Positions 5,792 through 26,146 of a DNA stretch of 42,457 nucleotides are shown in pieces; the first letter of the stretch is position 1, and each line of letters begins with the position of its first letter. The stretch is from Promicromonospora citrea (lineage in GTDB: Bacteria; Actinomycetota; Actinomycetes; Actinomycetales; Cellulomonadaceae): NCBI RefSeq assembly GCF_013004695.1, contig NZ_JABEMG010000028.1, forward strand, positions 1 to 42,457. The letters are read 5' to 3'. The position numbers were made by a program, and so were the translations under genes. A model generated the notes under the pieces. It was not told the DNA's origin and searched no databases. It was given only the letters and a program-made list of their open reading frames with translations.

Positions 5792-5796
5792 ATTTC

Positions 5797-5831
5797 GTAG
5801 CGGGGGCAGGATTTGAACCTGCGACCTCTGG
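5797..5831 (-). repeat. attR: 35-bp copy of the tRNA-fMet 3' part
   Basis: Identical over 35 bp to 26112-26146. On the minus strand it covers the 3' side of the anticodon stem, variable loop, T arm and acceptor strand. The 5' half of the tRNA is absent here, so it is not a gene but the target-site duplication left by integration. Confidence 0.85.
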
Positions 5832-6160
5832 AACTTGTTGTGCCCAAGTTGTCCCACTACGGAAAGGTCTGGAGTCGGCGGGATCTACCTTGGTTTTTCG
5901 GGGGATAACCCAACTGACAGGGACGATGCTAGCGCAACCTCAGGGAATGGGCCTGGGCGTGGCTGGATCCGTTTGGACTGAATCTGTTGCGTATTTGTTG
6001 CGGGGCTCGAATCACTGCGGACATCGCTTCTTGGGTGGTGGTCCGCAAACATCGACACCTCGGACGCATCTCGTGGCGGCAGTAGACGAACACGTCAGTA
6101 CACCGCGGAGTATCCTGTTTGCTCACATCGATCCGGACAGACACGGGAGCACGCAGGCAG
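5832..6160. other. Gene-free island end
   Basis: I see no convincing protein gene in these 329 bases. They hold TACGGAAAG (5858-5866), the 25-bp subterminal repeat (5986-6010), and the promoter region of the TetR gene at 6161. The latter includes TAGACGAAC (6083-6091), which matches a half-site of the palindrome at 6929-6952. Confidence 0.6.
5986..6010 (+). repeat. Subterminal direct repeat, possible integrase arm site (distal end)
   Basis: 21 of 25 positions match 26035-26059 in the same orientation; the core is GTTGCGT-N3-TGTTGCGG. It lies 155 bp inside the attR core. A role as integrase arm-type site is inferred from its presence at both ends. Confidence 0.55.
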
Positions 6161-6784
6161 ATGAGCACCACGACGCCAGAGCGGCCGCCTGCGGATGCTG
6201 ACGGAACCGCAAAGCGTTCCGTCCGGGATCGGATCCTCGACGCTGCATCCGAGCTGTTCTACGCGCGCGGGATCCACGCGACCAGCGCGGACAAGATCAT
6301 CGAGCTCTCCGGCGTCACGAAGGTGACGTTCTACCGGTACTTCCGGACCAAGGACGTCCTCGTGGTGGCCTACCTGGAACGCCAGGCAGCGTGGGAGCGC
6401 GGGGCACTCGACGGCCTTCGCCGGTCCTCCGGCGACGACGCCCAGGCGCTGCGGCGGTTCGCGGCGGCGATCGGCGCCGAGAGCTGCAAGCCGGGCTTTC
6501 GGGGGTGCGCGTTCATCAACGCGGCGGCCGAGTACCCCGATCCGGAAGGGCCAGTCCGAAAGGTGGTCGCGCAGCACCGCGGCTGGTACCGGGCGACGTT
6601 CGCCGGGATGCTCGGCCGGATCGGTGTGAACGACCCAGCGCGGGCCGCAGACGAGGTCATGATGCTGCGCGACGGCGCCATGGTGGCCGGCTCCCTCGAC
6701 GAGCCGTCCCGCGTGGGTGGCGCCCTGGAACGGGCGATCTTCGCAGTCATCGACGCCAGCCGGGCAACGCGCACCGCCGGCTGA
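6161..6784 (+). CDS. TetR-family transcriptional regulator
   Basis: A 207-residue TetR protein. The helix-turn-helix is at about residues 22-67 (RDRILDAASELFYARGIHATSADKIIE, KVTFYRYFRTKDVLV). The C-terminal half contains KPGFRGCAFINAAAEYPDP, a segment common in one TetR subgroup. I chose ATG 6161 (GGGAG upstream); an upstream TTG at 6119 would add 14 residues with no homology value. A TAGACGAAC half-site lies upstream at 6083-6091, and a full palindrome of the same type precedes the next gene, suggesting autoregulation and control of the hydrolase/Ohr pair downstream. Confidence 0.85.
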   Translation: MSTTTPERPPADADGTAKRSVRDRILDAASELFYARGIHATSADKIIELSGVTKVTFYRYFRTKDVLVVAYLERQAAWERGALDGLRRSSGDDAQALRRFAAAIGAESCKPGFRGCAFINAAAEYPDPEGPVRKVVAQHRGWYRATFAGMLGRIGVNDPARAADEVMMLRDGAMVAGSLDEPSRVGGALERAIFAVIDASRATRTAG

Positions 6785-6928
6785 GCGTCTCACCCCCCCC
6801 GCGCAGCAACCGCCCGCGGCAAGGGACCGGAGTCTGACACCACGACCGTGGCGCCAGGCTCCGGCCTTTTGCGCGCCCATCGACCTCCCGCCGCAGAGCA
6901 CCTTGTGCTGCTGTCACTTCGGACGTAC

Positions 6929-6952
6929 GGTAGACGTACTAGTTCGTCTACC
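6929..6952. promoter_or_regulatory. Palindromic operator upstream of the secreted hydrolase
   Basis: GGTAGACG-N8-CGTCTACC is a perfect 8-bp-arm dyad, 28 bp before the hydrolase ATG. The reverse strand reads TAGACGAAC, which is found again upstream of the TetR gene at 6083. It is a probable site for that TetR. Confidence 0.65.
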
Positions 6953-6980
6953 GACGGACGTTCGAACGAGAGGGACCCTC

Positions 6981-7817
6981 ATGAGGCTCGGCAATCCGCT
7001 CCGACGGCCGCTGCGCACCACCATCGGCGCCGCCCTGGGCGTAGCGCTGACACTCGGCGTCGGCGCAGGACTGGCACAGGCCGACAGCCGGCACCCCGGC
7101 CGCAGCAAGACCGAGAAGCCCACCGTCGTACTCGTGCATGGCGCGTTCGCGGACGCCAGTGGCTGGGGCGGTGTGGTCGGCGAGCTGCAGCACGACGGCT
7201 ATCCCGTGCTCGCCGTCGCCGACCCGCTGCGCGGCCTGGCATCCGACTCCGCATACGTCCGCAGCGTCGTCGACTCGGTCGACGGCGACGTGGTCCTGGT
7301 CGGCCACTCCTACGGCGGCGCGGTCATCACCAACGCCGCCACCGGCGCAGAGAACGTCGAAGCACTGGTGTACGTGGCGGCCTTCGCCCCGGACCTGGGC
7401 GAGACGATCAACAAGTTCAACGACCCCGCGCAGTACCCGGGCAGCGAGCTGACGCCGGACGCGCTGGTCTTCCGCCCCTACCCGGGCGGCGTCGACGTCA
7501 CCATCGATCCTGCTCGGTTCCAGCGGATCTTTGCCGCGGACCTGCCCTCGCGGCAGACCCGCCTCATGGCCGCGACTCAGCGCCCGGCTGCCGCGGCGTC
7601 CCTGGACGAGCAGTCCGGCGAGCCCGCGTGGAAGACGATCCCCAGCTGGTACCAGATCTCGGCCCGGGACAAGGCCATCTCCCCGGTGGCACAGCGATTC
7701 CTCGCCGAGCGCATGGGCGCACACACCACCACGGTCGACGCCTCGCACGTCGGGTACATCTCGCACCCGGCCAGGACGGCGAACCTCATCGAGTCCGCGG
7801 CCCGCGCGACCAGCTGA
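6981..7817 (+). CDS. Secreted alpha/beta hydrolase
   Basis: A 278-residue protein with a Sec-type signal peptide (basic N-terminus, hydrophobic residues about 14-31, likely cleavage after AQA near residue 34). It has an alpha/beta hydrolase fold: oxyanion HGAFADASGW near residues 53-62, nucleophile Ser110 in GHSYGG, and a C-terminal His in DASHVGYISHP. It resembles small esterase/EstC-like hydrolases acting outside the membrane on esters or similar compounds. GAGAGGG precedes ATG 6981. It lies between a TetR gene and ohr, and a TetR-type palindrome sits in its promoter. The substrate is unknown. Confidence 0.85.
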   Translation: MRLGNPLRRPLRTTIGAALGVALTLGVGAGLAQADSRHPGRSKTEKPTVVLVHGAFADASGWGGVVGELQHDGYPVLAVADPLRGLASDSAYVRSVVDSVDGDVVLVGHSYGGAVITNAATGAENVEALVYVAAFAPDLGETINKFNDPAQYPGSELTPDALVFRPYPGGVDVTIDPARFQRIFAADLPSRQTRLMAATQRPAAAASLDEQSGEPAWKTIPSWYQISARDKAISPVAQRFLAERMGAHTTTVDASHVGYISHPARTANLIESAARATS

Positions 7818-7883
7818 CCTGCCCACTTTCCCATGGCCGGCCGCGGACCAGCGGCCGGCCCCCCACAACGAAGGAGCATCACC

Positions 7884-8312
7884 ATGGCTGACAGCATCTA
7901 CACCGCAGTGGCAACCTCTACCGGTGACGGCCGCGCCGGAGGCCACGCGGCGACCGACGACGGCATCCTGGACCTGACCCTCGCCATCCCGACCGCCATG
8001 GGCGGGCCGGGCGGAGGGACCAACCCGGAGCAGCTCTTCGCCGCCGGCTGGGCGTCCTGCTTCCACAGCGCACTCAAGGGCGTCGCCGCCGCACAGAAGA
8101 TCACCTTCACCGACTCCGCGGTGGTAGCCGAGGTAGGTATCCACGCGGAAGAGGGTGGCACGTACGGCCTGAGCGCCGCGCTGCACGCCGAGCTCGCCGG
8201 AGTGGACCAGGCCACCGCCGACCAGCTGATCGAGGCAGCACACAAGGTCTGCCCGTACTCGAACGCCACCCGCGGCAACATCCCGGTCACGATCGATGCG
8301 ACGGTCGCCTGA
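7884..8312 (+). CDS. ohr: Organic hydroperoxide resistance protein (Ohr/OsmC family)
   Basis: A 142-residue thiol peroxidase of the Ohr type, which reduces organic hydroperoxides in the cytoplasm using its reactive Cys. The two redox cysteines are at residues 59 (AAGWASCFHSAL) and 123 (KVCPYSNATRGN). The Arg17 and Glu49 expected to shape the active site are present. AAGGAG ends 7 nt before ATG 7884. It follows the secreted hydrolase by 66 nt and may be cotranscribed with it. Ohr genes are usually controlled by MarR-type OhrR; no such gene is adjacent here, so the upstream TetR is the only local candidate regulator. A strong hairpin follows. Confidence 0.93.
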   Translation: MADSIYTAVATSTGDGRAGGHAATDDGILDLTLAIPTAMGGPGGGTNPEQLFAAGWASCFHSALKGVAAAQKITFTDSAVVAEVGIHAEEGGTYGLSAALHAELAGVDQATADQLIEAAHKVCPYSNATRGNIPVTIDATVA

Positions 8313-8333
8313 CCGCACGAGCCAGATCTTAAG

Positions 8334-8378
8334 CGACGAGGAGGGGCACCCGATGTGACCGGATGCCCCTCCTCGTCG
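8334..8378. terminator. Terminator between ohr and SnoaL-like gene
   Basis: 15-bp perfect arms 8334-8348 and 8364-8378 with a 15-nt loop, 21 nt after the ohr stop. The genes on both sides converge here, so it may work in both directions. Confidence 0.8.
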
Positions 8379-8423
8379 TTCGCGCCGTGCCCGAGCGGGA
8401 TAAGGGTCGGTGGAGCGCCACCC

Positions 8424-8771
8424 CTACCGGCGCAGGTCGGCCCGTACGTGCGCGATCTTGTGCTCGGCGGTCAGGGTGACGTCGAAGATTCCGCCGACGC
8501 GCCTCTCGGGGAAGTTGCCGGTGAACTCGACAGCGACGTGGAGATACCCGTCGCGTGGCTCGGTGCTGAGCAGTCGTGTCTGGGTGTCATAGCCGATGAA
8601 GTAGGACTGGAAGTACTCGTTGATCCCCGCATGCCCCTCGAATACCTCCCCGACCGAGGGATCGTCCAGTACGGCGTCATCGGTGAAGAACGCCAGGTAG
8701 GCGGCAGAGTCGTGCGTATTGGCCGCGGCAATCCACTCGGCGATCGTGGTGTCGGGCTCAGTTCCAGGCAT
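8424..8771 (-). CDS. SnoaL-like / NTF2-fold protein
   Basis: A 115-residue protein with the pattern of SnoaL-like polyketide-cyclase-fold proteins: IAEWIAAANTHDSAAYLAFFTDDAVLDDPSVGEVFEGHAGINEYFQ split over the N-terminal helix and pocket, then the strands AVEFTGNF and RVGGIFDVTL. Members are isomerases, cyclases, hydrolases or simple binding proteins, so no reaction is assigned. GGGAG precedes ATG 8771; longer in-frame starts lack a site and family sequence. It is divergent from the TetR gene at 9014. The shared 240-bp spacer carries a TetR-type dyad (8970-8986) and a motif (8890-8906) also found before the MmyB-type regulator at 10751. Confidence 0.8.
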   Translation of the reverse strand: MPGTEPDTTIAEWIAAANTHDSAAYLAFFTDDAVLDDPSVGEVFEGHAGINEYFQSYFIGYDTQTRLLSTEPRDGYLHVAVEFTGNFPERRVGGIFDVTLTAEHKIAHVRADLRR

Positions 8772-8889
8772 GTCGTGCTCCCTCGTTGTCGTGGTCTTCA
8801 CTGGAAGGCTGTGGAGGTCAGGCCGTCGATCGGCCGCCCCGCACGCCAACCCTGCGGCGGCGCGAGGCTGCGAGAAAGGGCGGGTGATC

Positions 8890-8906
8890 CAGGGAGGACT
8901 GCACCC
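8890..8906 (+). promoter_or_regulatory. Motif shared with the MmyB-type regulator promoter
   Basis: CAGGGAGGACTGCACCC matches 16 of 17 bases at 10698-10714. It lies about 120 bp upstream of the SnoaL-like ATG and 107 bp upstream of the divergent TetR ATG. It may be a second binding site for the regulator at 10751. Confidence 0.5.
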
Positions 8907-8969
8907 CCTCTCGATCAGCTGCTGGCCATGACACAGGCCCCGAACCTGTGGCACCATAATTTTGTACCG

Positions 8970-8986
8970 CTCGTTAAGAAAACGAG
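8970..8986. promoter_or_regulatory. Dyad operator upstream of TetR
   Basis: CTCGTT-AAGAA-AACGAG has perfect 6-bp arms and ends 27 bp before the TetR ATG at 9014. It is the probable autoregulatory site of that TetR. Confidence 0.5.
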
Positions 8987-9013
8987 GAAGCGGCATCCGA
9001 GCAGGAGGTGACC

Positions 9014-9646
9014 ATGGCCGGACCGGGCAGACCGCGTGCCTTCGACACGGACGAGGCGCTGGACGCCGCGGTGGAGGTGTTCTGGCGTCGAGGCTTCGCG
9101 GGCGCCAGCCTGACGGAGCTGGCCGCGGCGATGGGCGTCAACAAGCCAAGCGTCTACGGGGCGTTCGGCGACAAGGCGCAGCTGTTTCAGGCAGCGTTGC
9201 GCCGGTACGTCGAACGCAACATGGCATACGTCGCCGACGCCCTGGAACGGCACACGGCGCGGGAGTGCGCCCAGGCGTTCCTCGTCGGCAACGCACTCGC
9301 CGTGACCATGCCCGGGCGACCGGCCGGCTGCCTGTCGGTACAAGCCGTCGCCACGCCGGACGACTCGGGCGAGTACGCCGTGCTCGCGGAGAACCGCGCC
9401 ACGGTCCAGCGGATGTTCGCGGACCGGTTCCGGCGCGCGATCACCGACGGGGACCTGCCCGCCGGGGAAGACCCCGACGAGCTCGCCACCTTCCTGATCA
9501 CACTCAGCAGCGGCTTCGCGATCCGCGCCGCCGACGGGACCCCGCGAGAGGTTCTGCTGGCCATGGCGGAGCGGGCCATGGCCGCCTTTCCCGCGCCAGC
9601 CACCGACTCCCGATCAGCCACCTCGAAGGAGAACACCCATGTCTGA
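9014..9646 (+). CDS. TetR-family transcriptional regulator
   Basis: A 210-residue TetR protein opening with GRPRAFDTDEALDAAVEVFW and an HTH ending VNKPSVYGAFGDKAQLF (about residues 8-55). AGGAGGTG sits ideally before ATG 9014; a GTG at 9008 overlaps that ribosome site and is rejected. The C-terminal domain contains PGCLSV-like RPAGCLSVQAVATPDD. The stop overlaps the start of the next gene by 8 nt, so the TetR and the MazG-like protein are translationally coupled. A CTCGTT dyad lies just upstream. Confidence 0.88.
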   Translation: MAGPGRPRAFDTDEALDAAVEVFWRRGFAGASLTELAAAMGVNKPSVYGAFGDKAQLFQAALRRYVERNMAYVADALERHTARECAQAFLVGNALAVTMPGRPAGCLSVQAVATPDDSGEYAVLAENRATVQRMFADRFRRAITDGDLPAGEDPDELATFLITLSSGFAIRAADGTPREVLLAMAERAMAAFPAPATDSRSATSKENTHV

Positions 9647-10010
9647 GCCCGCACTGTCGCTCGCTGCCGCCCGTGAGCAGGCGCTCGCCGTCCGCTCTCT
9701 CTACGAGGTACTGGAGGAGCGGTTCAACGGCAAGACGTGGTCGTTGCACGAGCTGATGCTCGGCTTCTCCAACGACGTCGGCTACATCGGACGTCTCCTG
9801 CTCGCGAACGACGGCACCTGGGGCATCGAGGGTGACCCGCGCGCGGAGCTGGAGCACAAGCTCGCCGAGTCGATGTGGTGGACGTTCGTCCTGGCCGACA
9901 AGCTCGGCATCGACATCGACCAGGCTTACGCCCAGACCATGGACCGCATCCGCACCGGCCTGGAGTCCACCATCGCCCGCACCGACCCCGCCAGGCCGGA
10001 GCCGAGCTGA
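9639..10010 (+). CDS. MazG-like nucleotide pyrophosphohydrolase-fold protein
   Basis: A 123-residue all-helical protein. It resembles small actinobacterial MazG-like proteins: LYEVLEERFNGKTWSLHELMLGF, then NDVGYIGRLL, then ELEHKLAESMWWTFVLADKLGIDI. MazG enzymes hydrolyse NTPs or dNTPs to monophosphates with Mg held by EExxE and ExxD motifs. Here the first motif is degenerate, while the second is only partly kept (ESMWW..LAD), so catalysis is uncertain. AAGGAG lies before ATG 9639, and the start overlaps the TetR stop. Next comes the GyrI-like gene after 46 nt, forming a three-gene unit. Confidence 0.65.
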   Translation: MSEPALSLAAAREQALAVRSLYEVLEERFNGKTWSLHELMLGFSNDVGYIGRLLLANDGTWGIEGDPRAELEHKLAESMWWTFVLADKLGIDIDQAYAQTMDRIRTGLESTIARTDPARPEPS

Positions 10011-10056
10011 TGCACGACCTGGCCCTGACCCCGCACCGATCCGCGAAGGAACACCC

Positions 10057-10647
10057 ATGTTGAAGACACAGCCCACCGAGCACCTGCAGGCCGCCGACGA
10101 CCCCGAGCACGTTCGCACCCCCGCGGTGACCTATGTCGCCGTCCTGGGCGATGGAGCGCCGGGGACCGACGAGTTCTATCGCAAGAAGACCTTGGTGACC
10201 GACATCGCCGGCGAGCTGAACCAGGCCACCGGCTCCGCGCCGGTCGAGGAGATCCAGTACTGGTACCCCGAGGGGTCCCGGTCCGTCGAGATCGCCGACT
10301 TCTACAGCGTCAACCCGGTCCCGTCCCTGCTCTACCGGGTCCTGTCCCAGGTCCCGGCCGGCACCACCCAGCGGGACGTCGATGCTGCTCGCACCCGCGC
10401 GGCCAGCACCGCGGACACGGCGTCCGACGACGTCACCGTCTTCACCATCGCCGAGCAGGACGTCGTCCAGGTCATGCACCACGGCCCGTTCGCCGAGGAG
10501 TTCGCCACGCTCGGACGACTCGGCGACTTCGCGCAGCAGCGCGGTCTCCACCGCAGCGGGCCGCACCACGAGGTCCATCTGGACGCCTTCACGCGCAGCA
10601 CGCCGCAGGACACGTTGCGCACGATCCTGCGCGACCCGGTCGCATGA
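10057..10647 (+). CDS. GyrI-like small-molecule-binding domain protein
   Basis: A 196-residue stand-alone protein with a GyrI/SOUL-type fold signature: TPAVTYVAVLGDGAPGTDEFYRK at the start, VEEIQYWYPEG in the middle and VVQVMHHGPFAEEFATLGRL with HHEVHLDAFTRS near the end. Related domains bind cationic or aromatic small molecules, often as the ligand-binding half of AraC or MerR regulators; here no DNA-binding domain is attached. GAAGGA precedes ATG 10057. Cotranscription with the upstream TetR and MazG-like genes is likely. Confidence 0.7.
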   Translation: MLKTQPTEHLQAADDPEHVRTPAVTYVAVLGDGAPGTDEFYRKKTLVTDIAGELNQATGSAPVEEIQYWYPEGSRSVEIADFYSVNPVPSLLYRVLSQVPAGTTQRDVDAARTRAASTADTASDDVTVFTIAEQDVVQVMHHGPFAEEFATLGRLGDFAQQRGLHRSGPHHEVHLDAFTRSTPQDTLRTILRDPVA

Positions 10648-10695
10648 ACGAGCACGGCTGTGAACCTGTGCGTGCGGTGGCACTCCGGGTCGCGA

Positions 10696-10718
10696 GACAG
10701 GGAGGACCGCACCCTGTC
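10696..10718. promoter_or_regulatory. Dyad operator upstream of MmyB-type regulator
   Basis: GACAGGG-N9-CCCTGTC is a perfect 7-bp-arm dyad. It lies 19 bp upstream of TAGCGT (10738-10743), a -10 that is 7 nt before the ATG at 10751. The interior is shared with 8890-8906. Confidence 0.65.
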
Positions 10719-10750
10719 CGAGCCCGCCGAACGCGGTTAGCGTGAAAGGC

Positions 10751-11581
10751 ATGGCGACACCACCCGGCCCCCTCGGCGAATTCCTCCGCGCCCAGCGCTC
10801 CCGCCTCACGCCCGCCGACGTCGGCCTGCCCGACGTCGGCGCGCGGCGGGTCGACGGGCTGCGGCGCGAGGAGGTCGCCGTGCTGGCCGGCGTCAGCGCC
10901 GACTACTACGCCCGTCTCGAGCAGGGCCGCGAACGCACCCCGTCGGCGCAGGTCGTGGACGCCCTCTGCACTGCCCTGCGACTCAGCCCGGACGCCCGTG
11001 AGCACACCTTCCGCCTCGCGAAGCTCGCACCCGCCACCCAGCCCGAGCCCGGACCGGTCAGCCCTGAGCTGCTCCAGCTCATGGACGCCTTCCCGCACGC
11101 CGCCGCATACGTCGTCGACCCCGGTTTCCAGATCCTCGCCGCCAACACCACGGCCAAGGCGCTTCTCGGCCCCTCGCAGCTGGCAGTCGGGGCGTTCGAC
11201 TTCCTGTTCGTCGACCCCGCCGCGCGCACCTACTTCACCCACTGGGACCACGTCGCACGCGCTGCGGTCAGCGCCCTGCGCCTGGCCGCGGGCTTCGCCA
11301 ACCCGCACCCGGCCGTCCCTCCGCTCGTGTCCCGCATGCTCGCCGGGTCGCCAGAGTTCGCAGCCTTCTGGGCAGACCAGACCGTGGCCGGCCTCAGCCT
11401 GACCGAGAAGGTCATCAACCACCCCGACGTCGGCCGGATCACCCTGACCTACCAGACGCTCGACGTCCGCGAAGCACCCGGACAGCAGCTCACCGTCGCG
11501 ACCGCACCGGCAGGAAGCCCCAGCGCGGACGCCCTCGCCCTCCTCGGCACGCTCGAGGCCACCCGAACCACGCAGCCGTGA
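10751..11581 (+). CDS. XRE-family regulator with MmyB-like ligand-binding domain
   Basis: A 276-residue protein with an N-terminal XRE helix-turn-helix (about residues 5-80: LGEFLRAQRSRL, GLRREEVAVLAGVSADYYARLEQGR) and the MmyB-type PAS-like ligand domain (from about residue 105: LMDAFPHAAAYVVDPGFQILAANTTA). Such regulators commonly repress a nearby reductase and bind a fatty-acyl-like ligand. The ATG at 10751 follows TAGCGT by 7 nt, suggesting a leaderless transcript; the in-frame GTG 10742 overlaps the -10 and is rejected. It is followed by an enoyl-CoA hydratase-like gene 113 nt downstream. The GACAGGG dyad upstream is the likely autoregulatory site. Confidence 0.88.
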   Translation: MATPPGPLGEFLRAQRSRLTPADVGLPDVGARRVDGLRREEVAVLAGVSADYYARLEQGRERTPSAQVVDALCTALRLSPDAREHTFRLAKLAPATQPEPGPVSPELLQLMDAFPHAAAYVVDPGFQILAANTTAKALLGPSQLAVGAFDFLFVDPAARTYFTHWDHVARAAVSALRLAAGFANPHPAVPPLVSRMLAGSPEFAAFWADQTVAGLSLTEKVINHPDVGRITLTYQTLDVREAPGQQLTVATAPAGSPSADALALLGTLEATRTTQP

Positions 11582-11649
11582 GGACGGGGCGGGGCACGCC
11601 AAGGAGCAATCCCGCCCGGGAATACCAGCAAGCTCGCCGATGCTGCACA

Positions 11650-11682
11650 CCAAGTAATCGGAGACCCTCTCCGAATACTTGG
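11650..11682. promoter_or_regulatory. 33-bp palindrome abutting the ribosome site of the hydratase-like gene
   Basis: CCAAGTAATCGGAGA-CCC-TCTCCGAATACTTGG pairs 14 of 15 positions, and its last bases merge with the ribosome site GGAAAGG (from 11681). It could be a repressor operator, or an RNA hairpin that hides the ribosome site. It also follows the upstream regulator gene and might end its transcript. Confidence 0.6.
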
Positions 11683-11694
11683 AAAGGCTGCGGC

Positions 11695-12543
11695 ATGACG
11701 TTCCTCGAAGAGTTCAACCCCAAGCACCTCACCCTGACGGTCGAGTCGCCCACGTTCTGGCGCGTGACCTTCAACAACCCACCGATCAACGTCATCGGGC
11801 TGGAGATGATGAGGGACCTCAAGGCGCTGCTCACCGAGCTGGAGAACAACAAGACGGTCAACGTCGTGGTGTTCGACAGCGCCGACCCCGACTTCTACAT
11901 CGCCCACTACGACGTCACCGTCGACAACGAGCTCGCGGAGGCCCTGCCCAAGGCCACCGACTACACCGCCTGGGTCGACATCACCGTCCGCATGAGCAAG
12001 CTCGACGCCGTGACGGTCGCCGCCATCCGGGGCATCACCCGCGGCGCGGGCAGCGAGCTGGTGCTGGCCATGGACATGCGCTTCGCCAGCCTGGAGAAGA
12101 CCAAGCTCGCCCAGGTCGAGATCGCGCTCAACGCCGTCACCGGCGGCGGCGCCAGCGGACGACTGCCCTCCCTGGTCGGCCGCGGGCGCACGATGGAGAT
12201 CCTGCTCGGCGCCGAGGACTTCGACGGAGCCCTCGCGGAGAAGTACGGCTACGTCAACCGCGCGCTCCCGGACGCAGAACTGGACGAGTTCGTGTCCCGC
12301 TTCGCCCGGCGCGTGTCCGGGTGGGACCACCAGGCGATCGTGGAGGTCAAGGAGTTCATCAACAAGTACACGCGCCTGCCGGACGGGGAGTACCCGCTGC
12401 ACTCCGACGCCTACTGGGCGGCAGTCTCCAACCCCGAGGTCGGCGCCACTGTCGAGCGGCTGCTCGAGAAGGGCATGCAGGAGCGAGGGCCTCTGGAGTA
12501 CGACCTGGCCACGAAGATCGGCGCGATCGCGCAGCAGCGCTGA
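11695..12543 (+). CDS. Enoyl-CoA hydratase/isomerase-like protein (second paralogue)
   Basis: A 282-residue crotonase-family protein of the same length and layout as the one at 796-1644. The N-terminal strand reads RVTFNNPPINVIGLEMM, the oxyanion segment AAIRGITRGAGSELVLAMDMRFA, and the catalytic segment QVEIALNAVTGGGASGRLPSLVGR. The Glu is kept, but the usual GIIPG is replaced by NAVTGG. The C-terminus (EVGATVERLLEKGMQERG) aligns in type with its paralogue. GGAAAGG precedes ATG 11695, directly after a 33-bp palindrome. It converges on the TetR gene at 12603-13172. The substrate is unknown. Confidence 0.83.
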   Translation: MTFLEEFNPKHLTLTVESPTFWRVTFNNPPINVIGLEMMRDLKALLTELENNKTVNVVVFDSADPDFYIAHYDVTVDNELAEALPKATDYTAWVDITVRMSKLDAVTVAAIRGITRGAGSELVLAMDMRFASLEKTKLAQVEIALNAVTGGGASGRLPSLVGRGRTMEILLGAEDFDGALAEKYGYVNRALPDAELDEFVSRFARRVSGWDHQAIVEVKEFINKYTRLPDGEYPLHSDAYWAAVSNPEVGATVERLLEKGMQERGPLEYDLATKIGAIAQQR

Positions 12544-12602
12544 CCGCAGGAGGGACGCACGGGCTGGCACCACCAGGTGCTTTCCCGTGCGCCCTCCGTG
12601 GT

Positions 12603-13172: not shown

Positions 13173-13191
13173 TGCTCGTCCTACCTCTTCG

Positions 13192-13203
13192 GTTCCTCGG
13201 AAC
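13192..13203. promoter_or_regulatory. Short palindrome upstream of TetR
   Basis: GTTCC-TC-GGAAC is perfect and lies 20 bp upstream of the TetR ATG at 13172. A possible autoregulatory site; short enough to arise by chance. Confidence 0.35.
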
Positions 13204-13206
13204 AGC

Positions 13207-17544: not shown

Positions 17545-17560
17545 CTGCTCACCTCCGACC

Positions 17561-17590: not shown

Positions 17591-17606
17591 TTACTATAGT
17601 GGCAGC

Positions 17607-18254: not shown

Positions 18255-18417
18255 TCCACTGCCCAACGGCGTGTCGGCACCGAACTGCTCCGTCGTCGTA
18301 CCGATGTCCGCTGCGTCACACAACCGGTCCAGCTTTCCGGACCACACCTGTCCGGGTAGGTCCATAGCGTGCGGATGGACCGGGAGGGGCCCGGTCCTGA
18401 GAGGGGAATCGGCAACT

Positions 18418-19418: not shown

Positions 19419-20399
19419 CTACGGCCGGGGCGACGAGCCTGTCGCCCCGGCCGAGCCGTTGCTCTCGACGAGCGCTATGGCCCGTCGTCGCACCGCCTCC
19501 CGCACCGAGTCCGGGGACAGGACCGTCAGCGGAACTCCCAGGCGCATCAGGTACTCCCCGAGGGACTCCGCGTCCGTGCCGCCGATCCGCACGATCGTGG
19601 CGTGCGGCCCGTCCGGCTCATGAGTACCGGCGGTGGGCGGCACGGCGCGCATCGCGTCGTCGAGAGAGAGCGGCAGGCGCACGACGGCGTAGAGCGGGTA
19701 GTCGCTGACGAGCATCTCGGCGACGAGCCGTGCGGCGTCGGGCGGGTCCGGCACGTGCACCAGCCGGCCGGTGGGGTGGACGTCGATGACCCGGTCGGCG
19801 CGGAAGGTCCGCCAGGCTCCCTTGGCGACGTCCAGCGCCACGAGGTACCAGCGGTTCCCGGTGAAGACCAGGCGATACGGATCGACGTCACGCACCGTGT
19901 CGGTCCCCTGCATGCTCCGGTAGGACAGCGTGATCCGTTCGCCGCGCCGGCAGACCTGCGCCAACCCCGCAAGCATCCCGGGCGAGAGCGGCTGCCCGCA
20001 GACCCTTGTGGTGTGCTCGAAGACGCCGTCCATCGCACCGAGCCGGGACGCCACCCGCGCCGGTAGGAGCTGGCGGAGCTTCAGCAGCGCCGACAGTACC
20101 GCCTGGTCGTCACCGAGCACCCTGGTCTGCGCGGCCTCGCGCAGCGCGACACTGACGGCCAGCGCCTCCTCGTCGTCGAGCACGAGGGGCAGGTGGCTGC
20201 GACTTTCCCTGAGCCGGTAACCACCCCAGTGGCCGGGATCCGACTCGACGTCGTAACCGAGGTCGCGCAGCCGGGCGACATCACGTCGCACCGTCCGCTC
20301 CGTGACGTCCATACGCTGCGCGAGCTCGCCGGCCGTCCAGCTCGTCCGCGACCACAGCAGGGACAGCAGCTGCAGCAGCCGCGAGGAGGTGCTGATCAC
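19419..20399 (-). CDS. WYL-domain transcriptional regulator
   Basis: A 326-residue regulator with an N-terminal winged HTH (about residues 5-60: LLQLLSLLWSRTSWTAGELAQRMDVTERTVRRDVARLR in pieces) and a WYL domain (about residues 150-215: ITLSYRSMQGTD, YRLVFTGNRWYLVALDVAKGAWRTFRADRV). A C-terminal WCX-like region follows. The start is GTG 20399, 2 nt after the hydrolase stop and with no clear ribosome site, so translation is probably coupled. As third gene of the MFS-hydrolase-WYL operon it may regulate this operon or the saccharopine-like gene. The ligand is unknown. Confidence 0.87.
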   Translation of the reverse strand: MISTSSRLLQLLSLLWSRTSWTAGELAQRMDVTERTVRRDVARLRDLGYDVESDPGHWGGYRLRESRSHLPLVLDDEEALAVSVALREAAQTRVLGDDQAVLSALLKLRQLLPARVASRLGAMDGVFEHTTRVCGQPLSPGMLAGLAQVCRRGERITLSYRSMQGTDTVRDVDPYRLVFTGNRWYLVALDVAKGAWRTFRADRVIDVHPTGRLVHVPDPPDAARLVAEMLVSDYPLYAVVRLPLSLDDAMRAVPPTAGTHEPDGPHATIVRIGGTDAESLGEYLMRLGVPLTVLSPDSVREAVRRRAIALVESNGSAGATGSSPRP

Positions 20400-20401
20400 A
20401 G

Positions 20402-21319
20402 TCAGTAGCCGAAGTGTTCCTTGATCGCGGTCAGGACTGCCTCAGGTGCCTCGTGCAACATCCAGTGGCCGGTGTCCAACGCCGCACCCGTGGCCTGCGG
20501 CGCGGCGTCCCGGACGGCCTGCAGAAAGCTATCGAGCAGCGGCGCCTGAGCCAGGACGTGCACCGGGATCGCTAGCGGCAGCGCCATGGCCAGCCGGTTG
20601 TCGACCTCGTCCTGCGGCCACGCCTGGTAGTACCGGGACCCGTTGTGCAGCGCAGCAGGCCGGGCATACGCCCGCACGTACTCTTCGAGGACCCCGGGCG
20701 TCATCGGCAGCTCACCGCCACCCGCCTGGACCCGGTAGAAGTAGTCGAGGTAGAGGCGCTCGCGCCCGGCGACGAGGTCCTCGAACAGGGGCTCCTGCTC
20801 GTGGAACGCGAAGTGGAAGGACAGCGGGCGCACCTGGTCGTACCGCAGCGACCCACCAACGATCGGGAAGTCCATCATCAGCCAGCCCGTGAACTGGTCG
20901 CGCCACTGGGTGACCAGGGCGAACGCGATACCGCTCCCGGCGTCGTGCGATACGAGCTGGACGCCGCTGGTGAAGCCCAGCAGGTCCAGGAGCCGGTGGA
21001 CGTAGCCGGCGAGGGTGACCTTGTCGTGCGACGGGAGGGAACCGGTGCTGTCGCCGAGGCCGGGGAGGTCGATCGCGATCACGGTGTGGCCCGGTAGGAG
21101 GTCGGTCATGATCGGCAGCCAGCCGTACCAGGTCTCGGTGAAACCGTGCAGCAGCACGATCGGGGTAGGCCCGTCGCCCCCGACGACATAGTGCATCTGC
21201 AGGTCGTCGATGGTGGTGAAGCCGTGCCGGAACGTGTCCTGGAAGGCTGGGTCGTCGCGGGTCGCGGTGTCGTAGCCGGTGCTCAGCGGGGCTTCGGTGG
21301 TGAGGTCGGAGAGAGTCAT
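20402..21319 (-). CDS. Epoxide hydrolase / dehalogenase-like alpha/beta hydrolase
   Basis: A 305-residue cytoplasmic alpha/beta hydrolase. The nucleophile position is Asp126 in LVSHDAGSG, not Ser, which places it with epoxide hydrolases and haloalkane or fluoroacetate dehalogenases. The oxyanion segment is HGFTETWYGW at residues 59-68, and the catalytic His285 is in DTGHWMLHEAP. The cap region contains FHFAFHEQEPLFED, common in these enzymes. ATG 21319 overlaps the MFS stop as ATGA. Pairing with an efflux pump suggests breakdown or export of a reactive xenobiotic; this is inference. Confidence 0.85.
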   Translation of the reverse strand: MTLSDLTTEAPLSTGYDTATRDDPAFQDTFRHGFTTIDDLQMHYVVGGDGPTPIVLLHGFTETWYGWLPIMTDLLPGHTVIAIDLPGLGDSTGSLPSHDKVTLAGYVHRLLDLLGFTSGVQLVSHDAGSGIAFALVTQWRDQFTGWLMMDFPIVGGSLRYDQVRPLSFHFAFHEQEPLFEDLVAGRERLYLDYFYRVQAGGGELPMTPGVLEEYVRAYARPAALHNGSRYYQAWPQDEVDNRLAMALPLAIPVHVLAQAPLLDSFLQAVRDAAPQATGAALDTGHWMLHEAPEAVLTAIKEHFGY

Positions 21320-22770
21320 GACCGGGTCCTTTCACGGGGGACGGTGATGTTGAGGGAGACGAGCACGGTGGCGACCATGAGGCCGGCGCACACCAGGAGG
21401 GCCACGGACAGGCCGTCCATGAGCGAGCCGCTGGCGACCGTCACGCTGGCGGCGACGGTGTTCAGTACGGCGATGACCACCGCACCGCTGACCTGCTGGG
21501 CAGCGTTCACCGTTCCGCCCGCTGCCCCGGAGTGCTCGTCCGGCACGCCGGTCAGCGCTGTGGCGCTCAGCGCGGGCCAGGACAAGCCGACTGCGGCGCC
21601 GACCAGTGCCATCGCGGGCAACAGGACGGCGAGCCCGGTGGCGCTGCTCGACGAGGAGAGCATCAGGAACCCGGCTACCCCGGACGCCGCGCCGGTCGCG
21701 ATCACGACGCGTGGCCCGAACCTGAGCATGAGTCGCCCACCTACCGTGGCGAAGACAAGAACGGCGAGGGTCGTGGGCAGAAAGGCCAGCCCGGACTCGA
21801 GCGCGTTGTATCCGCGCACCTGCTGCAGGTAGTAGATGATCAGCACGTTGCTGGCAAAGATGGCGCCGGCCAGGAGCGCGGTCGCTCCGAACGCGCTGCC
21901 GCGGACGCGGTCGGTGAGCACGGACAGCGGGAGCAGCGGGGCCTTGGTCCGGTGCTCGATGCCGACGAAGGCCACCAGCAGGAGCAGCCCTCCCACGATC
22001 GGCGCCAAGGCCTGGATCGACGCCCAGCCGTACGCCTCTGCGAGGGTGGCGCCGTACACGATCGCCGCGACGCCGAGGGTCGACGTCACCGTCCCGGGCA
22101 GGTCGAGCCGGCCGCGGACTGCGGCCTTCGACTCCCGGACCACGAGCAGCGCTGCGACGGCGATGGCGATCGCCAGAGGAGCGTTGACCAGCAGGGTCCA
22201 GCGCCAGGAGGTGTACTCGGTCAGGACGCCGCCCAGGATCAGTCCGAGCGACGCGCCCAGTCCACCTACACCGCCCCACACCGCGAACGCCTTGGCTCGC
22301 TGGGCCGGCTCGGTGAAGTTCGTGGTGATCAGCGAGAGGACCACCGGTGCGAGGACGGCACCGAACGCGCCCTGCAGTGCACGCGCGGCATAGAGCAGGC
22401 CCGCGCTACCGGCGATGCCGCCGAGCAGAGACGCTATGCCGAACCCGACCAGCGACCACACCAGCGCGCGCTTGCGCCCCAGATAGTCACCGACCCGGCC
22501 GCCGAGCAGCAGCAGGCCGCCGAACGTGATGGCGTAGGCGGTCACGACCCAGTGCCGGTCGGCGTCAGAGATTCCGAGGTCCGCCTGCGCCGACGGCAGC
22601 GCGACCGTGACGATGGTCGTGTCGAGCTGGATGGTGAGCTGGGTGATCGCGAGGACGGCGAGCAAGAGGCCCGGTCGTACCGGGAGCTTGGCACCCCGGG
22701 GCGCCCGGCCCAAGGACGTGCCACGGGGTCGGCCGGCCGTCGGACCGGCGGAGGCGGAAGTGGTTGACAT
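21316..22770 (-). CDS. MFS transporter, DHA2 (EmrB/QacA-like) drug efflux type
   Basis: A 484-residue polytopic membrane protein with about 14 hydrophobic segments, typical of the DHA2 proton antiporters. Motifs include LDTTIVTVALPSAQADLG in TM1, the A-like motif GRVGDYLGRKRALV, and motif C GLGASLGLILGG with PLAIAIAVAALLV downstream. The ATG at 22770 is close to a GGAG (GGAGCC then ATG), tighter than usual; longer forms are GC-rich leader sequence. It is the first gene of an operon with the epoxide-hydrolase-like and WYL genes, and is divergent from the LuxR regulator. A dyad (22804-22848) separates them. Confidence 0.9.
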   Translation of the reverse strand: MSTTSASAGPTAGRPRGTSLGRAPRGAKLPVRPGLLLAVLAITQLTIQLDTTIVTVALPSAQADLGISDADRHWVVTAYAITFGGLLLLGGRVGDYLGRKRALVWSLVGFGIASLLGGIAGSAGLLYAARALQGAFGAVLAPVVLSLITTNFTEPAQRAKAFAVWGGVGGLGASLGLILGGVLTEYTSWRWTLLVNAPLAIAIAVAALLVVRESKAAVRGRLDLPGTVTSTLGVAAIVYGATLAEAYGWASIQALAPIVGGLLLLVAFVGIEHRTKAPLLPLSVLTDRVRGSAFGATALLAGAIFASNVLIIYYLQQVRGYNALESGLAFLPTTLAVLVFATVGGRLMLRFGPRVVIATGAASGVAGFLMLSSSSSATGLAVLLPAMALVGAAVGLSWPALSATALTGVPDEHSGAAGGTVNAAQQVSGAVVIAVLNTVAASVTVASGSLMDGLSVALLVCAGLMVATVLVSLNITVPRERTRS

Positions 22771-22803
22771 GGCTCCAGCCTGTGCGGACCGGTGTCGCGA
22801 GCC

Positions 22804-22848
22804 CATCCCCCACCTGGGGGTGACGAACACCCCCGCACCTGGGGGATG
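22804..22848. promoter_or_regulatory. Compound dyad between MFS and LuxR genes
   Basis: Two G/C-run units, CCCCCACCTGGGGG (22807-22820) and CCCCCGCACCTGGGGG (22830-22845), each dyadic, also sit within a larger inverted repeat bounded by CATCCCCCA and TGGGGGATG. They precede the LuxR -10 TACTGT (22870-22875) and the MFS start, so this is the likely operator of the LuxR-type regulator. Confidence 0.6.
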
Positions 22849-22881
22849 TCGCAACCCACCCGGGCCTCGTACTGTGCAGAG

Positions 22882-23994
22882 GTGGTCACCTCTCAGATCT
22901 CCCTGCATGACCATCGTGTCGTTGCACTACGCGAGACCGTCGCCGAGCTGGCGGCTCGTCCACCTGCGGCACGGGAGTTCCTGGACGAGGTCGAACGCCG
23001 CCTGCGGAAGGTGGTCCAGTTCGACGGCGGCGACTGGTGGACGTCCGACCCGGAGACCCTGCTCCCGATGGAGCTACGGCCGTTCGAGTACCCAGCGCTC
23101 CAGTACGAGGTAGCCGCCAACGACGTCAACCGCCTCGACGAGCTCGACCGGCAGAGCCGCAACGTCTCCACCCTTGGGCTGGCCCTCCCAGGCCAGCACG
23201 CCCGCTCCGCCCAGTTCGACGGTCACTACCGGGTAGCTGGTGGCGGCGACCAGATGCGGGTGCTCGCACGCAACGGTGGAAGGACCTGGGGCGCCGCGTG
23301 CCTGTACCGCGGCGAGGACCTACCTGACTTCACGCGAGACGAAGTCGCAGTCATCTCGGCCATCTCGCGCGACGTCGGCCTGGCCCTGCGCACGGACCTG
23401 CTGCGGACCGTGGTGCGCAACAGCGGCGAGTGGTCTGCCGCGTCCGTCGATGAACGGTCGGGGACCGTCGTCGCCGACCGCGACGACCGGGTGCTCGGTT
23501 TCACGCCCGACGGTGGGCACTGGCTCGAACGCCTCGGCGTGCACACGTCGGACGAAGAACTTCCCGCGTCACTGCGCTGGATCACGCTCCAGGCGCGCGC
23601 CCAGGACCGTCAGCCGGCCTCGGGGCCTGCCGGGGGCCGCACGCTGCGGCCGGCACGTTCCCGCATCCGAGTCGCGAGCGGCGAGCTGGTGACGGTACGC
23701 GCCGAGGTGCTGCGCGGCTCGGTCGACGGCGCCGTCGTCCTCGGGCTCGAGCCGGCGACCGGCGCCTCCATGTGGCCGCTGCTGGTCGCGCTCTACGGCC
23801 TGACAGAACGCGAGACCCAGCTCACGTCGATGCTTGTCGAAGGTCGTTCCATCAAGGAGATCGCCACGGGGCTCCACCTCTCGATCCACACGGTCCGTGA
23901 CCACGTCAAGGCCGTGTACGCCAAGGTCGGCATCAGCTCCCGTCCAGAACTGACAGCCCGGCTCGGCGGCGGGCCGGGCGTCGCGCCCTCCTGA
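22882..23994 (+). CDS. LuxR-family (GerE-type HTH) regulator
   Basis: About 370 residues. The C-terminal LuxR helix-turn-helix is clear near residues 300-355 (LTERETQLTSMLVEGRSIKEI, LHLSIHTVRDHVKAVYAKVG). The N-terminal ~200 residues look GAF-like (FDGGDWWTSDPETLLPMELRPF, FTRDEVAVISAISRDVGLALR), so it probably senses a small ligand. I chose GTG 22882 because TACTGT lies exactly 6 nt upstream, suggesting a leaderless mRNA; an ATG at 22846 lies inside the dyad. It is divergent from the MFS operon and upstream of a reductase gene, and is the likely local activator. Confidence 0.82.
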   Translation: MVTSQISLHDHRVVALRETVAELAARPPAAREFLDEVERRLRKVVQFDGGDWWTSDPETLLPMELRPFEYPALQYEVAANDVNRLDELDRQSRNVSTLGLALPGQHARSAQFDGHYRVAGGGDQMRVLARNGGRTWGAACLYRGEDLPDFTRDEVAVISAISRDVGLALRTDLLRTVVRNSGEWSAASVDERSGTVVADRDDRVLGFTPDGGHWLERLGVHTSDEELPASLRWITLQARAQDRQPASGPAGGRTLRPARSRIRVASGELVTVRAEVLRGSVDGAVVLGLEPATGASMWPLLVALYGLTERETQLTSMLVEGRSIKEIATGLHLSIHTVRDHVKAVYAKVGISSRPELTARLGGGPGVAPS

Positions 23995-24068: not shown

Positions 24069-24812
24069 ATGAACATCGCGATCATCACCGGCGGCAGCCG
24101 CGGTATCGGCGCCGCCACAGCACTGGCCTGCGCCCGACGCGGCCTCGGCGTCATCATCACCTACAACAGCAACCCGGACGCGGCCGCGGACGTCGTCGGC
24201 AAGATCAAGGCCGACGGCGGTACGGCGGTAGCGCTGGCGCTCGACGTGACCGACACCACCACGTTCGCGGCCTTCGCCACGACGGTCCGCAGCACCCTGC
24301 AGGAGACCTGGGGCCGGACCGACTTCGACCACCTGGTCAACAACGCCGGCTACGGCCTCTACAACCCCATCGCCACGGTCACCGAGGAACAGTTCGACGG
24401 CCTGTTCCGCGTGCACCTCAAAGGCCCGTTCTTCCTCACCCAGACCCTGCTGCCCCTGATCGCCGACGGCGGCCAGATCGTGAACCTCGTCAGCGCGACA
24501 AGCCGCGTCGCGACCACCGGCGTCGCACCGTACGCCAGCTTCAAGGGCGGCCTCGAGGTCCTGACTCGCTACATGGCCAAGGAATTCGGCGACCGCCGCA
24601 TCCGGGCGAACTCGATCGCGCCCGGCGCCATCCGCACCGAGATTGGCGGCGGCCTGAACGAGGAATTCGAGGCGCAGCTGGCCGGCGCTACGGCACTGGG
24701 CCGGGTCGGCGAGCCCGACGAGGTCGGTGGTGTCATCGCGAGCCTGCTCTCCGACGACAACCGCTGGGTCAACGCCCAGTCGATCGAAGTCTCCGGAGGG
24801 TTCTACATCTGA
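24069..24812 (+). CDS. Short-chain dehydrogenase/reductase (SDR)
   Basis: A 247-residue classical SDR: TGGSRGIG at residues 7-14, NNAGYG near residue 91, catalytic Ser in VNLVSATSRV and Tyr/Lys in APYASFKGGLEVL. The C-terminal VNAQSIEVSGGFYI is typical. It is shared in type with the SDR at 4508 but not a close copy. No strong ribosome site is seen before ATG 24069. It follows the LuxR gene by 74 nt and may share its promoter. It is the last gene before the integrase, and a bidirectional-looking terminator follows. Confidence 0.88.
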   Translation: MNIAIITGGSRGIGAATALACARRGLGVIITYNSNPDAAADVVGKIKADGGTAVALALDVTDTTTFAAFATTVRSTLQETWGRTDFDHLVNNAGYGLYNPIATVTEEQFDGLFRVHLKGPFFLTQTLLPLIADGGQIVNLVSATSRVATTGVAPYASFKGGLEVLTRYMAKEFGDRRIRANSIAPGAIRTEIGGGLNEEFEAQLAGATALGRVGEPDEVGGVIASLLSDDNRWVNAQSIEVSGGFYI

Positions 24813-24952: not shown

Positions 24953-24994
24953 GGTGACCTAGCTCAGGCGCATCTTGATCCGCCCTCCAGGAAC

Positions 24995-25984
24995 TCAGAG
25001 TCCCAGCGACCGGCTCGACGTGTTTGCCATCGCGTCCAGCGGGCGGATGTAGTGCCGGACGAGCGTGGAGATCTCCTTGTGGCGGGTCTGGGCGGCGATC
25101 CTGTCCAGGGGTACACCGGCGAGGGCGGCGGCCGTGGCGTGCCCCGCACGTAACGAGTGCCCCGAGACCCGTTCGCTCTCGATCCCCGCAGCTGCGGCCC
25201 GAGTGCGGATGATGCATCTGACAGTGTGGCCGCTGATGCGTTCGATGGTCGGGCGGCCGTTCGAGCGGATCCTGGTGAACACGTTCCCCGGCGTGGTCCC
25301 GCGCACGGCGGTCCAGTAGCGCAGCGCTGCCACCGGATCGGTCACGGCGTGCGCGCCGATGGCTACCGCGACCACCTGCCCCTTCGCATCGGGGTCGCAC
25401 TTGGACCGCCGGATGTTCAGCAGGACGCCGTCTCGCACGAACAAGACGTCGTCGAGCGCCAGCTCCGCCAGTTCCGACCGGCGCAGGGCTGAAGCGAAGC
25501 CGAGCAGGAGCAGAGCGCGGTCCCGCGCCCCCGCTGCGGTGCTCCTGTCGATCTGATCGACCATGTTCCGGATGTCCTCGGTCACCAACGCACGTGCCTG
25601 CCGACGGGGCGCGACGCCGAGGATGCGTCGCAGGCCTCGTCGCACCCTCGCGACGGTCGGGTCTGCGATCGGGTCCGGGGCGCCGGCCCGCTGGTGCTCG
25701 TACCTGATCGCGGCACAGCACGCCGTGATCGTGGCGTTGGCCAGACCGAGGTCTGCCCGCTCGGCCAGGTAGGCACACACCGTTGCCGGATCGGCAGGCA
25801 ACGACGCCAGCCCACGGTCGGCACACCATCGGGTGAAGAGACGCCAGGCCGAGGCGTACGAGGCCAGGGTCGATGGGGCGCGCTCAGCGGAAATCGCTGC
25901 CGCCACACGGGCGGCATCCACGGTCGTCAGGCCGGAGAAGTCGCTGCCAGCGTGGATCGGGGCGGGTTCGAGAAGAGTCGTCAT
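24995..25984 (-). CDS. Tyrosine recombinase (island integrase)
   Basis: A 329-residue phage-type integrase. An N-terminal SAM-like core-binding domain (STLASYASAWRLFTRWCADRG) precedes the catalytic domain with all key residues: Arg168 (ALRRSEL), Lys195 (RRSKCDP), His276 and Arg279 (SGHSLRAGHAT), His302 (TRHKEIST) and Tyr312 (RHYIRPL). It should cut and join the att core in the tRNA gene. I chose ATG 25984; a TTG at 26059 would add 25 residues across the arm-type repeat and is less likely. Its 5' end lies 128 bp from the att core in the intact tRNA. Confidence 0.93.
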   Translation of the reverse strand: MTTLLEPAPIHAGSDFSGLTTVDAARVAAAISAERAPSTLASYASAWRLFTRWCADRGLASLPADPATVCAYLAERADLGLANATITACCAAIRYEHQRAGAPDPIADPTVARVRRGLRRILGVAPRRQARALVTEDIRNMVDQIDRSTAAGARDRALLLLGFASALRRSELAELALDDVLFVRDGVLLNIRRSKCDPDAKGQVVAVAIGAHAVTDPVAALRYWTAVRGTTPGNVFTRIRSNGRPTIERISGHTVRCIIRTRAAAAGIESERVSGHSLRAGHATAAALAGVPLDRIAAQTRHKEISTLVRHYIRPLDAMANTSSRSLGL

Positions 25985-26034
25985 GCCCGAAGTACTACGG
26001 GACGGACACTGCGCCCGCGCGCTACTTACGGAAA

Positions 26035-26059
26035 GTTGCGTTTCTGTTGCGGTGCTCAA
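26035..26059 (+). repeat. Subterminal direct repeat, possible integrase arm site (integrase end)
   Basis: Counterpart of 5986-6010 (21 of 25 identical), in the integrase promoter region 53 bp from the attL core. Binding here could also let the integrase repress itself. Confidence 0.55.
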
Positions 26060-26074
26060 GTTCTACAAACCTTT

Positions 26075-26106
26075 CAGGCCCGGAGATCCGCAGATCTCCG
26101 GGCCTG
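26075..26106. terminator. 14-bp stem terminator supplied by the element
   Basis: Arms 26075-26088 and 26093-26106 pair perfectly around CGCA, directly after the tRNA 3' end on the minus strand. It is a functional twin, not a copy, of the hairpin at 5758-5791. Confidence 0.75.
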
Positions 26107-26111
26107 ACTTT

Positions 26112-26146
26112 GTAGCGGGGGCAGGATTTGAACCTGCGACCTCTGG
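26112..26146 (-). repeat. attL: 35-bp att core within tRNA-fMet
   Basis: Perfect match to 5797-5831; it forms the 3' part of the intact tRNA gene. Crossover must have occurred inside this segment, keeping the tRNA sequence unchanged. Confidence 0.85.

Follow-up and report, generated by a model that had tools for sequence, protein, structure and literature searches.

Contig NZ_JABEMG010000028.1 of Promicromonospora citrea, a soil actinobacterium, very probably carries a tyrosine-integrase genomic island that was inserted in the initiator tRNA gene and whose cargo has been changing by operon capture and recombination between islands. The 42,457-bp stretch analysed (the window) is one whole contig of a 290-contig, 4.96-Mb draft assembly (GCF_013004695.1). 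An exact repeat of the tRNA 3' part, paired motifs inside the island ends, an integrase, relatives at the same site, and lowered divergence of shared genes are all observed. Comparisons were made among 13 Promicromonospora genomes including this one, which is labelled G000.

Island Limits and the Rebuilt tRNA Gene

The island's ends, 5797-5831 and 26112-26146, form an exact 35-bp direct repeat in the same orientation and enclose 20.3 kb (Table 1). The original prediction, made from the sequence, had placed the island at 5797-26146, with a perfect repeat of the tRNA-fMet 3' part at both ends and an integrase at one; its coordinates are right to the base, the two copies are identical, and an apparently intact tyrosine integrase adjoins the tRNA. 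Across 20 mononucleotide shuffles of the window, exact repeats reached at most 16-19 bp, which rules out coincidence. Among the matches listed, every other exact 35-bp repeat in the window comes from overlapping units in a 15-bp tandem array near 32330. Beyond the tRNA end the similarity of the two copies runs on into a hairpin (92% over 52 nt). GC content is 70.3% in the island and 74.1% and 73.5% in the flanks.

The tRNA with a CAT anticodon at 26112-26186 (26113-26186 according to Rfam) is the only one that ARAGORN finds in the window, and it is the sole match of at least 97% over nearly full length in this draft assembly. It has an unpaired C1-U72 and three G:C pairs in the anticodon stem, which we take to be the marks of an initiator tRNA; the stem sequence rules out an elongator tRNA-Met. 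The gene appears to be of divided origin, its 5' part chromosomal and its 3' part derived from the island. Use of the initiator tRNA, as predicted, is thus borne out, but the argument that this is notable because the gene is essential is weakened: there is nothing exceptional in the target, because insertion rebuilds the gene and because other actinobacterial mobile elements use tRNA-Met genes. These include an Arthrobacter phage (PMC10865867) and one actinomycete integrative and conjugative element (AICE; PMC3218068), for both of which the passages concerned leave unstated whether the tRNA is initiator or elongator.

Table 1. Features of the island and its ends (positions in the window)
Feature	Position	Strand	Basis or remark
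Displaced hairpin beyond far att copy	5757-5792	-	folding
Displaced att repeat, identical 35 bp, island far end; putative original tRNA 3' end	5797-5831	-	
Arm-like motif GTTGCGTNTNTGTTGCGGNGCTC, far-end copy	5986-6008	+	motif scan; also at relatives' far ends
TetR regulator	6119-6784	+	Pfam
Alpha/beta hydrolase	6717-7817	+	Pfam
OsmC-like protein	7833-8312	+	Pfam
SnoaL-like protein	8424-8996	-	Pfam
TetR regulator	9008-9646	+	Pfam
GyrI-like small-molecule-binding protein	9832-10647	+	Pfam, 25.7 bits (cut-off 26)
HTH-MLTR (MmyB-like) regulator	10742-11581	+	Pfam
Enoyl-CoA hydratase/isomerase	11578-12543	+	Pfam
TetR regulator	12603-13325	-	Pfam; part conserved in relatives ends at ~13218
Cassette, 5.07 kb, five genes	13219-18284		absent from G002 and G007 islands
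Cassette CbiQ-type T component	about 13410-14000	-	
Cassette ECF ATPase	14000-14827	-	
Cassette thiolase	14683-15810	-	
Cassette acyl-CoA ligase	15803-17242	-	
Cassette TetR, divergent to operon	17511-18254	+	
Saccharopine-dehydrogenase-like NAD(P)-binding protein	18271-19398	+	Pfam
HTH-WYL regulator	19419-20399	-	Pfam
Alpha/beta hydrolase	20402-21319	-	Pfam
MFS transporter	21316-22914	-	Pfam; nearest to efflux models but under their cut-offs
LuxR-type (GerE) regulator	22792-23994	+	Pfam
SDR oxidoreductase	24069-24812	+	Pfam; 94-96% in G002, G007, G008
Tyrosine integrase, start codon uncertain	24995-26059	-	Pfam
Arm-like motif GTTGCGTNTNTGTTGCGGNGCTC, tRNA-side copy	26035-26057	+	motif scan
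Island-borne hairpin, terminator-like, no U-run, between tRNA 3' end and int	26074-26107	-	folding
att repeat, tRNA side, 35 bp, from 3' side of anticodon stem to tRNA 3' end	26112-26146	-	
Initiator tRNA (CAT), as rebuilt	26112-26186	-	ARAGORN, Rfam, sequence search

Integrase, Arm-Like Motifs, and Hairpins

The integrase gene comes next after the tRNA and shares its strand; its product (354 aa if translation starts at TTG) matches PF00589 (6.2e-16) and has a SAM-like N-terminal domain. Its motifs R.SEL (at 193), HSLR (at 301), and HY (at 336) are presumably the catalytic motifs of a tyrosine integrase. XerC/XerD and integron-type models match it only far below their cut-offs, and a housekeeping XerC/D recombinase is thereby ruled out.

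The 23-bp motif GTTGCGTNTNTGTTGCGGNGCTC has exactly two matches in the window at up to two mismatches, one inside each island end; the 0.00 expected from 100 shuffles flatters it, because the motif was derived from an alignment of far ends and the tRNA-side end after both ends had been seen. The two copies are probably arm sites of the integrase. Some 200 bp preceding the far repeat align as a conserved block among G000, G002, G003, G007, and one G011 fragment, and are unconserved in G004 and at the second G011 fragment. The far copy of the motif (at most one mismatch) recurs in G000, G002, G003, G007, one G011 contig, and one G005 contig, and the tRNA-side copy stands at equal distance in G000, G003, and G007.

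A strong hairpin begins within about 6 nt of the tRNA end in all 24 tails compared (22 distinct, those labelled G009b and G012b being counted twice), the first 62 nt folding at -33 to -46 kcal/mol (z -4.5 to -10.3, mononucleotide shuffles). The corresponding values in the window are -33.5 kcal/mol (z -6.7) on the tRNA side and -36.3 kcal/mol (z -4.9) at the far end. Since every tail starts in this way, the island appears to bring a hairpin of its own and to displace the older one to its far end. To call these hairpins rho-independent terminators would be too strong, the island's type having no U-run, and for the same reason transcription may not terminate there.

Occupation of the Same Site in the Genus

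The initiator tRNA is present in 13 of 13 genomes, and copies of at least 97% over nearly full length are single in 11 and double in two. The second initiator-type gene (97%) of those two, on contig C1 of G009 and contig C1 of G012, is found in no other of the 13. Upstream gene order is kept in the 12 other genomes as far as their stretches reach (in G011, the three genes nearest the tRNA only). A tRNA fragment lies on the same contig in five genomes, at 20.3 kb in G000, 15.0 in G002, 22.4 in G003, 6.7 in G004, and 19.7 in G007; the fragments of G011, and a weaker one of G005, are on another contig.

The cargo of G000 standing in the same order in relatives that lack the repeat had been named as the finding that would count against an island. 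G002 and G007 do have most of it in that order; in both, however, it stands at this same tRNA, and a tRNA fragment marks the far end. Both islands are without the cassette genes (i10-i13); that of G002 is also without an integrase, and that of G007 lacks i01-i02 and all but part of i03, with other genes in their place. G008 has, near its tRNA, an SDR gene of 96% identity beside a 65% relative of the MLTR gene.

G003 matches the ends of this island, with 97.4% identity over 77 bp beyond the tRNA on the near side and 83.6% over 269 bp on the far side, fragment and tail included, and its cargo has nothing in common with that of G000 except a 46%-identical TetR. The site is suggested to be a busy landing strip at which different cargoes can share similar ends. 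A gene of the HTH_17 family lies beside the tRNA in G003, G004, and G011, and G011 also has a different, 394-aa integrase there, so that two or more recombination modules apparently operate here. Of the listed PF00589 matches, those in G000, G007, and G011 are the only ones located in the stretch next to the tRNA.

Two loci off the tRNA-bearing contigs deserve mention. An orphan far end, with the arm motif and a 93% tRNA fragment, lies at ~9800-10010 of locus L054 (G005 contig C6). In locus L050 (G011 contig C1), 1.6 kb separates two tRNA-fMet fragments that have unlike tails, an arrangement that suggests stacked insertions.

Five genomes (G005, G006, G008, G010, and G012) have the tRNA followed by a double-hairpin tail, with no downstream fragment on that contig (E <= 0.001). 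We take this tail to be the ancestral one, since the G002 and G004 islands terminate in it too and it stands after the second tRNAs of G009 and G012. The far fragment and tail of G002 match the unoccupied tRNA end and tail over 125 bp (of which ~35 are tRNA) at 95.2% in G005 and 93.6% in G012, a match that is, as judged by alignment, a signature of insertion. The expectation that strains with an empty site would exist is borne out to the extent of these five genomes, but no strict empty allele of the P. citrea island was found. The far tail in the window is not of the double-hairpin kind, and matches of the left flank in the compared genomes are piecemeal, in G011 contig C1, in G006, and over 92 bp in G009; the downstream sequence of the five fragment-free genomes matches that flank only in G006 (729 bp, 74%). 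The site may have been occupied before this island arrived. G009 was rejected as a clean empty allele, its tRNA end and tail matching the far end only over 92 bp at 89%. Nor does G010 offer a clean empty site to compare with the G003 island, since the backbone common to the two is preceded in each by 3.4-3.6 kb of unshared sequence.

Divergence and Mosaic Structure

Measured against five upstream chromosomal genes, a baseline from one side only, shared island genes are 1.9-3.4 times less diverged at four-fold sites: 0.109 (14 genes) vs 0.373 between G000 and G002, 0.195 (12 genes) vs 0.363 between G000 and G007, and 0.181 (11 genes) vs 0.335 between G002 and G007 (rank tests, p 0.0014 for G000-G002 and 0.0098 for G000-G007). 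These figures omit matches with best identity below 60%, the LuxR gene, and the partial OsmC gene of G007, and i10-i13 have no same-site partner. The LuxR gene was called in another frame in G002 and G007, where tblastn sees 92-93%. The lower divergence implies that the island moved after the lineages split.

Identity between G000 and G002 is 97.7% over 7433 bp (i01-i09, 5791-13218) and 89-94% over the rest, from which we conclude that the island is a mosaic; block means on either side of the break are 0.047 and 0.192 (p 0.001). The break falls at the cassette at 13219-18284. That cassette has a GC content of 73.3%, against 70.3% for the island. Its ligase has matches in nine of 101 family genomes, this one included (E <= 1e-80), and all five genes stand together, in the same order and at other loci, in each of seven stretches from relatives (55-85% identity). 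The seven stretches, five from the genus and two from other genera, surround eight of the other places with a ligase match, G001 not being taken. This comparison used the domain part of CbiQ and longer stretches, earlier long open reading frame (ORF) matches having fallen outside the CbiQ domain. As judged from this synteny, the cassette looks like a captured chromosomal operon.

Cargo and Neighboring Genes

Twenty-one island ORFs, picked mainly by codon-position GC, were scanned with Pfam; the picked ORF 17141-17563 and the remaining mechanical ORFs lay outside the scan. Those scanned are enzymes, transporters, regulators, small-molecule-binding or SnoaL/OsmC-like proteins, and the integrase only, in support of the predicted metabolic and regulatory cargo. 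No relaxase, FtsK/Tra, Rep, or phage-structural/packaging family was matched among the 21, in keeping with the earlier statement that the island is without transfer genes.

PADLOC, applied to 20 island ORFs, matched only four regulators (MLTR, TetR, WYL, and LuxR; best, the WYL model at 2e-44), which rules out an anti-phage island. Integrase homologues occur in two of 50,697 phage records (E <= 1e-5), both from cyanobacterial phages and below 42% identity, and the three stretches in viral contigs that show the pattern include no relative; a viral origin was rejected on these grounds. A plasmid origin was likewise rejected, the homologues in 312 of 72,556 plasmid records (E <= 1e-5) all being below 60% identity.

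Outside the island, an MmyB-like ORF at 5200-5733 (plus strand) lacks an HTH, retains just the later portion of the ligand-binding domain, and ends about 63 bp from the far att copy; it is perhaps the remnant of an earlier insertion. One 794-aa ORF at 796-3180 (minus strand) joins ketoacyl synthase and enoyl-CoA hydratase domains, and a G011 stretch matches only its hydratase part (86%). A perfect 27-nt inverted repeat with an 8-nt loop at 708-769 is likely to be a terminator. On the other side of the island, 15-bp tandem units occupy 32310-32399 within a 904-aa minus-strand ORF.

Homologues Outside the Genus and Known Systems

Homologues of the integrase were found in 17 of 200 family genomes (E <= 1e-30) and in five of 396 order genomes (E <= 1e-70), this one included in both counts; ARAGORN found no tRNA within 1.5 kb in 13 of 18 integrase loci. 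G048, from another genus, has a 54%-identical integrase beside tRNA-fMet and an identical 35-bp fragment 3.7 kb away, apparently a minimal island, and G173 has the 35-bp fragment about 4.4 kb from a partial integrase homologue. The integrase of G168 is near a tRNA-Ala with a different T arm, and those of G360 and G487 are near tRNA-Pro genes with nearly the same T arm.

An intact tRNA gene, a displaced 3' fragment in the same orientation, a tyrosine integrase between them, and a length of 20.3 kb (within 2-200 kb) make the element, on its layout, a tDNA island of the T-arm/junction (J) class of Islander. Class J accounts for 1836 of 3919 Islander islands, and that pipeline puts CAT tRNAs in an initiator class (PMC4383910). 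By the published description there is no structural difference: the island is one further member, in an initiator tRNA gene.

Other systems resemble it in part, as far as the descriptions consulted go. The I55 islands (PMC12595487) share the tyrosine integrase, direct repeats, lack of recognised transfer genes, and horizontal spread, but have tmRNA as target, putative phage-defence cargo, and jumbo-phage transport, whereas here the target is the initiator tRNA, the cargo is metabolic, and PADLOC gave no defence cargo in the 20 ORFs. Tycheposons (PMC10872708) are similarly described as having a tRNA (tRNA-Met among them) at the border, a tyrosine recombinase, and metabolic cargo; they come from other phyla than this actinobacterial island. 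ICEKp1 (PMC13023037) has int after the tRNA on the same strand and stem-loops before int, and displacement of the tRNA terminator to the far end was measured there; it is conjugative and its transcription was measured, whereas the present island is known by layout alone. AICEs (PMC3218068) share an actinobacterial tyrosine integrase at a tRNA 3' end, in one case tRNA-Met, but carry Rep, Tra, and Xis, none of which was found in the 21 ORFs. The same scan yielded neither the FtsK/TraB-type transfer gene and Rep gene of an AICE, nor the relaxase of an integrative mobilizable element, nor the structural or packaging genes of a prophage. No title or abstract opening in the literature searched describes this island or initiator-tRNA islands of Promicromonospora. 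In our view it is a well-preserved example of an ordinary, known kind of island, and the hotspot in which it lies is instructive.

Mechanism and Alternative Explanations

A circular form would carry an attP consisting of the initiator tRNA 3' half and the island's own hairpin, flanked by the arm-like sites. The integrase would recombine attP with the corresponding 3' half in the chromosome's initiator tRNA gene. The T arm, a 7-nt loop between GCAGG and CCTGC, is the likeliest crossover point, because the T stem-loop lies in the identical block; the T arm is the crossover site of Islander class J (PMC4383910). One side would then have a rebuilt tRNA followed by the island hairpin and int, and the other would keep the old 3' end of the tRNA and the old hairpin. 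Because the scan revealed no transfer gene, movement between cells would depend on a helper, through transduction or hitch-hiking. Cargo would turn over as islands take up chromosomal operons and recombine with one another at the site.

Several observations weigh against insertion and spread by this integrase. No strict empty allele of the island was found among the 13 genus genomes, because the far tail differs in kind and the left flank matches only in pieces. No excisionase was recognised in this island, GTTGCGTNTNTGTTGCGGNGCTC was not found at up to four mismatches in six stretches from other genera, and no obvious arm-like repeat pair of its own was found in G048. The chromosomal baseline is one-sided, and not every gene follows the trend: the TetR gene at 9008-9646 is chromosome-like (0.457 for G000-G007 and 0.447 for G002-G007), and the two G008 genes give 0.348 when pooled, against 0.391 for the chromosome (SDR 0.152, MLTR relative 0.570). 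Spread may not need the integrase at all, because it is absent from G002, reads in G007 as frameshifted near codon 56 (or a sequencing error), and is a fragment in G001; within the genus only that of G000 is complete. It is accordingly conceivable, though we think it less likely, that the integrase made the first insertion only and that spread now proceeds by homologous recombination between chromosomes sharing the hotspot and its ends. The mosaic divergence, with its break at the cassette, and the cargo that G002 and G007 still have in common favor this; yet the upstream flank genes bear no sign of co-transfer (pooled 0.36-0.37 from G002 and G007), and G000 retains an apparently intact integrase and both arm-like motifs.

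Descent from an AICE that lost rep and tra is improbable. AICEs with tyrosine integrases are common in tRNA 3' ends, and remnant or mobilizable forms without tra or rep have been described, in the part of the literature consulted (PMC3218068), but families for rep, tra, and xis are absent from the ORFs scanned here, and no rep or tra family occurs in the fMet islands of G003 (22 of 26 ORFs scanned) and G004 (6 of 10). The HTH_17 gene in each of those two islands could be an excisionase. That the region was inherited vertically and the tRNA fragment is fortuitous, as the chromosomal style of the cargo and a GC content only 3-4 points under the flanks might suggest, we consider highly implausible, being contradicted by the 35-bp identity, the paired motifs, the variants at the same site, the lower divergence, and the patchy presence. 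An integrase-mediated insertion whose cargo was later remodelled best fits these observations.

A broader and more speculative proposal, which we hold only tentatively, is that the initiator tRNA of the genus, mostly single-copy, is a dedicated landing site for helper-mobilised, integrase-only cargo shuttles with conserved ends, which exchange whole metabolic cargoes and some copies of which lose their integrase and use another copy's. The P. citrea island has clear limits, a defined att core, known relatives, and an integrase that appears intact, and it could serve as an integration tool for a little-studied genus. With it the movement of islands that lack transfer genes becomes directly testable, and that an initiator tRNA gene, usually present once, is targeted again and again indicates how safe the rebuilding of the tRNA 3' end is.

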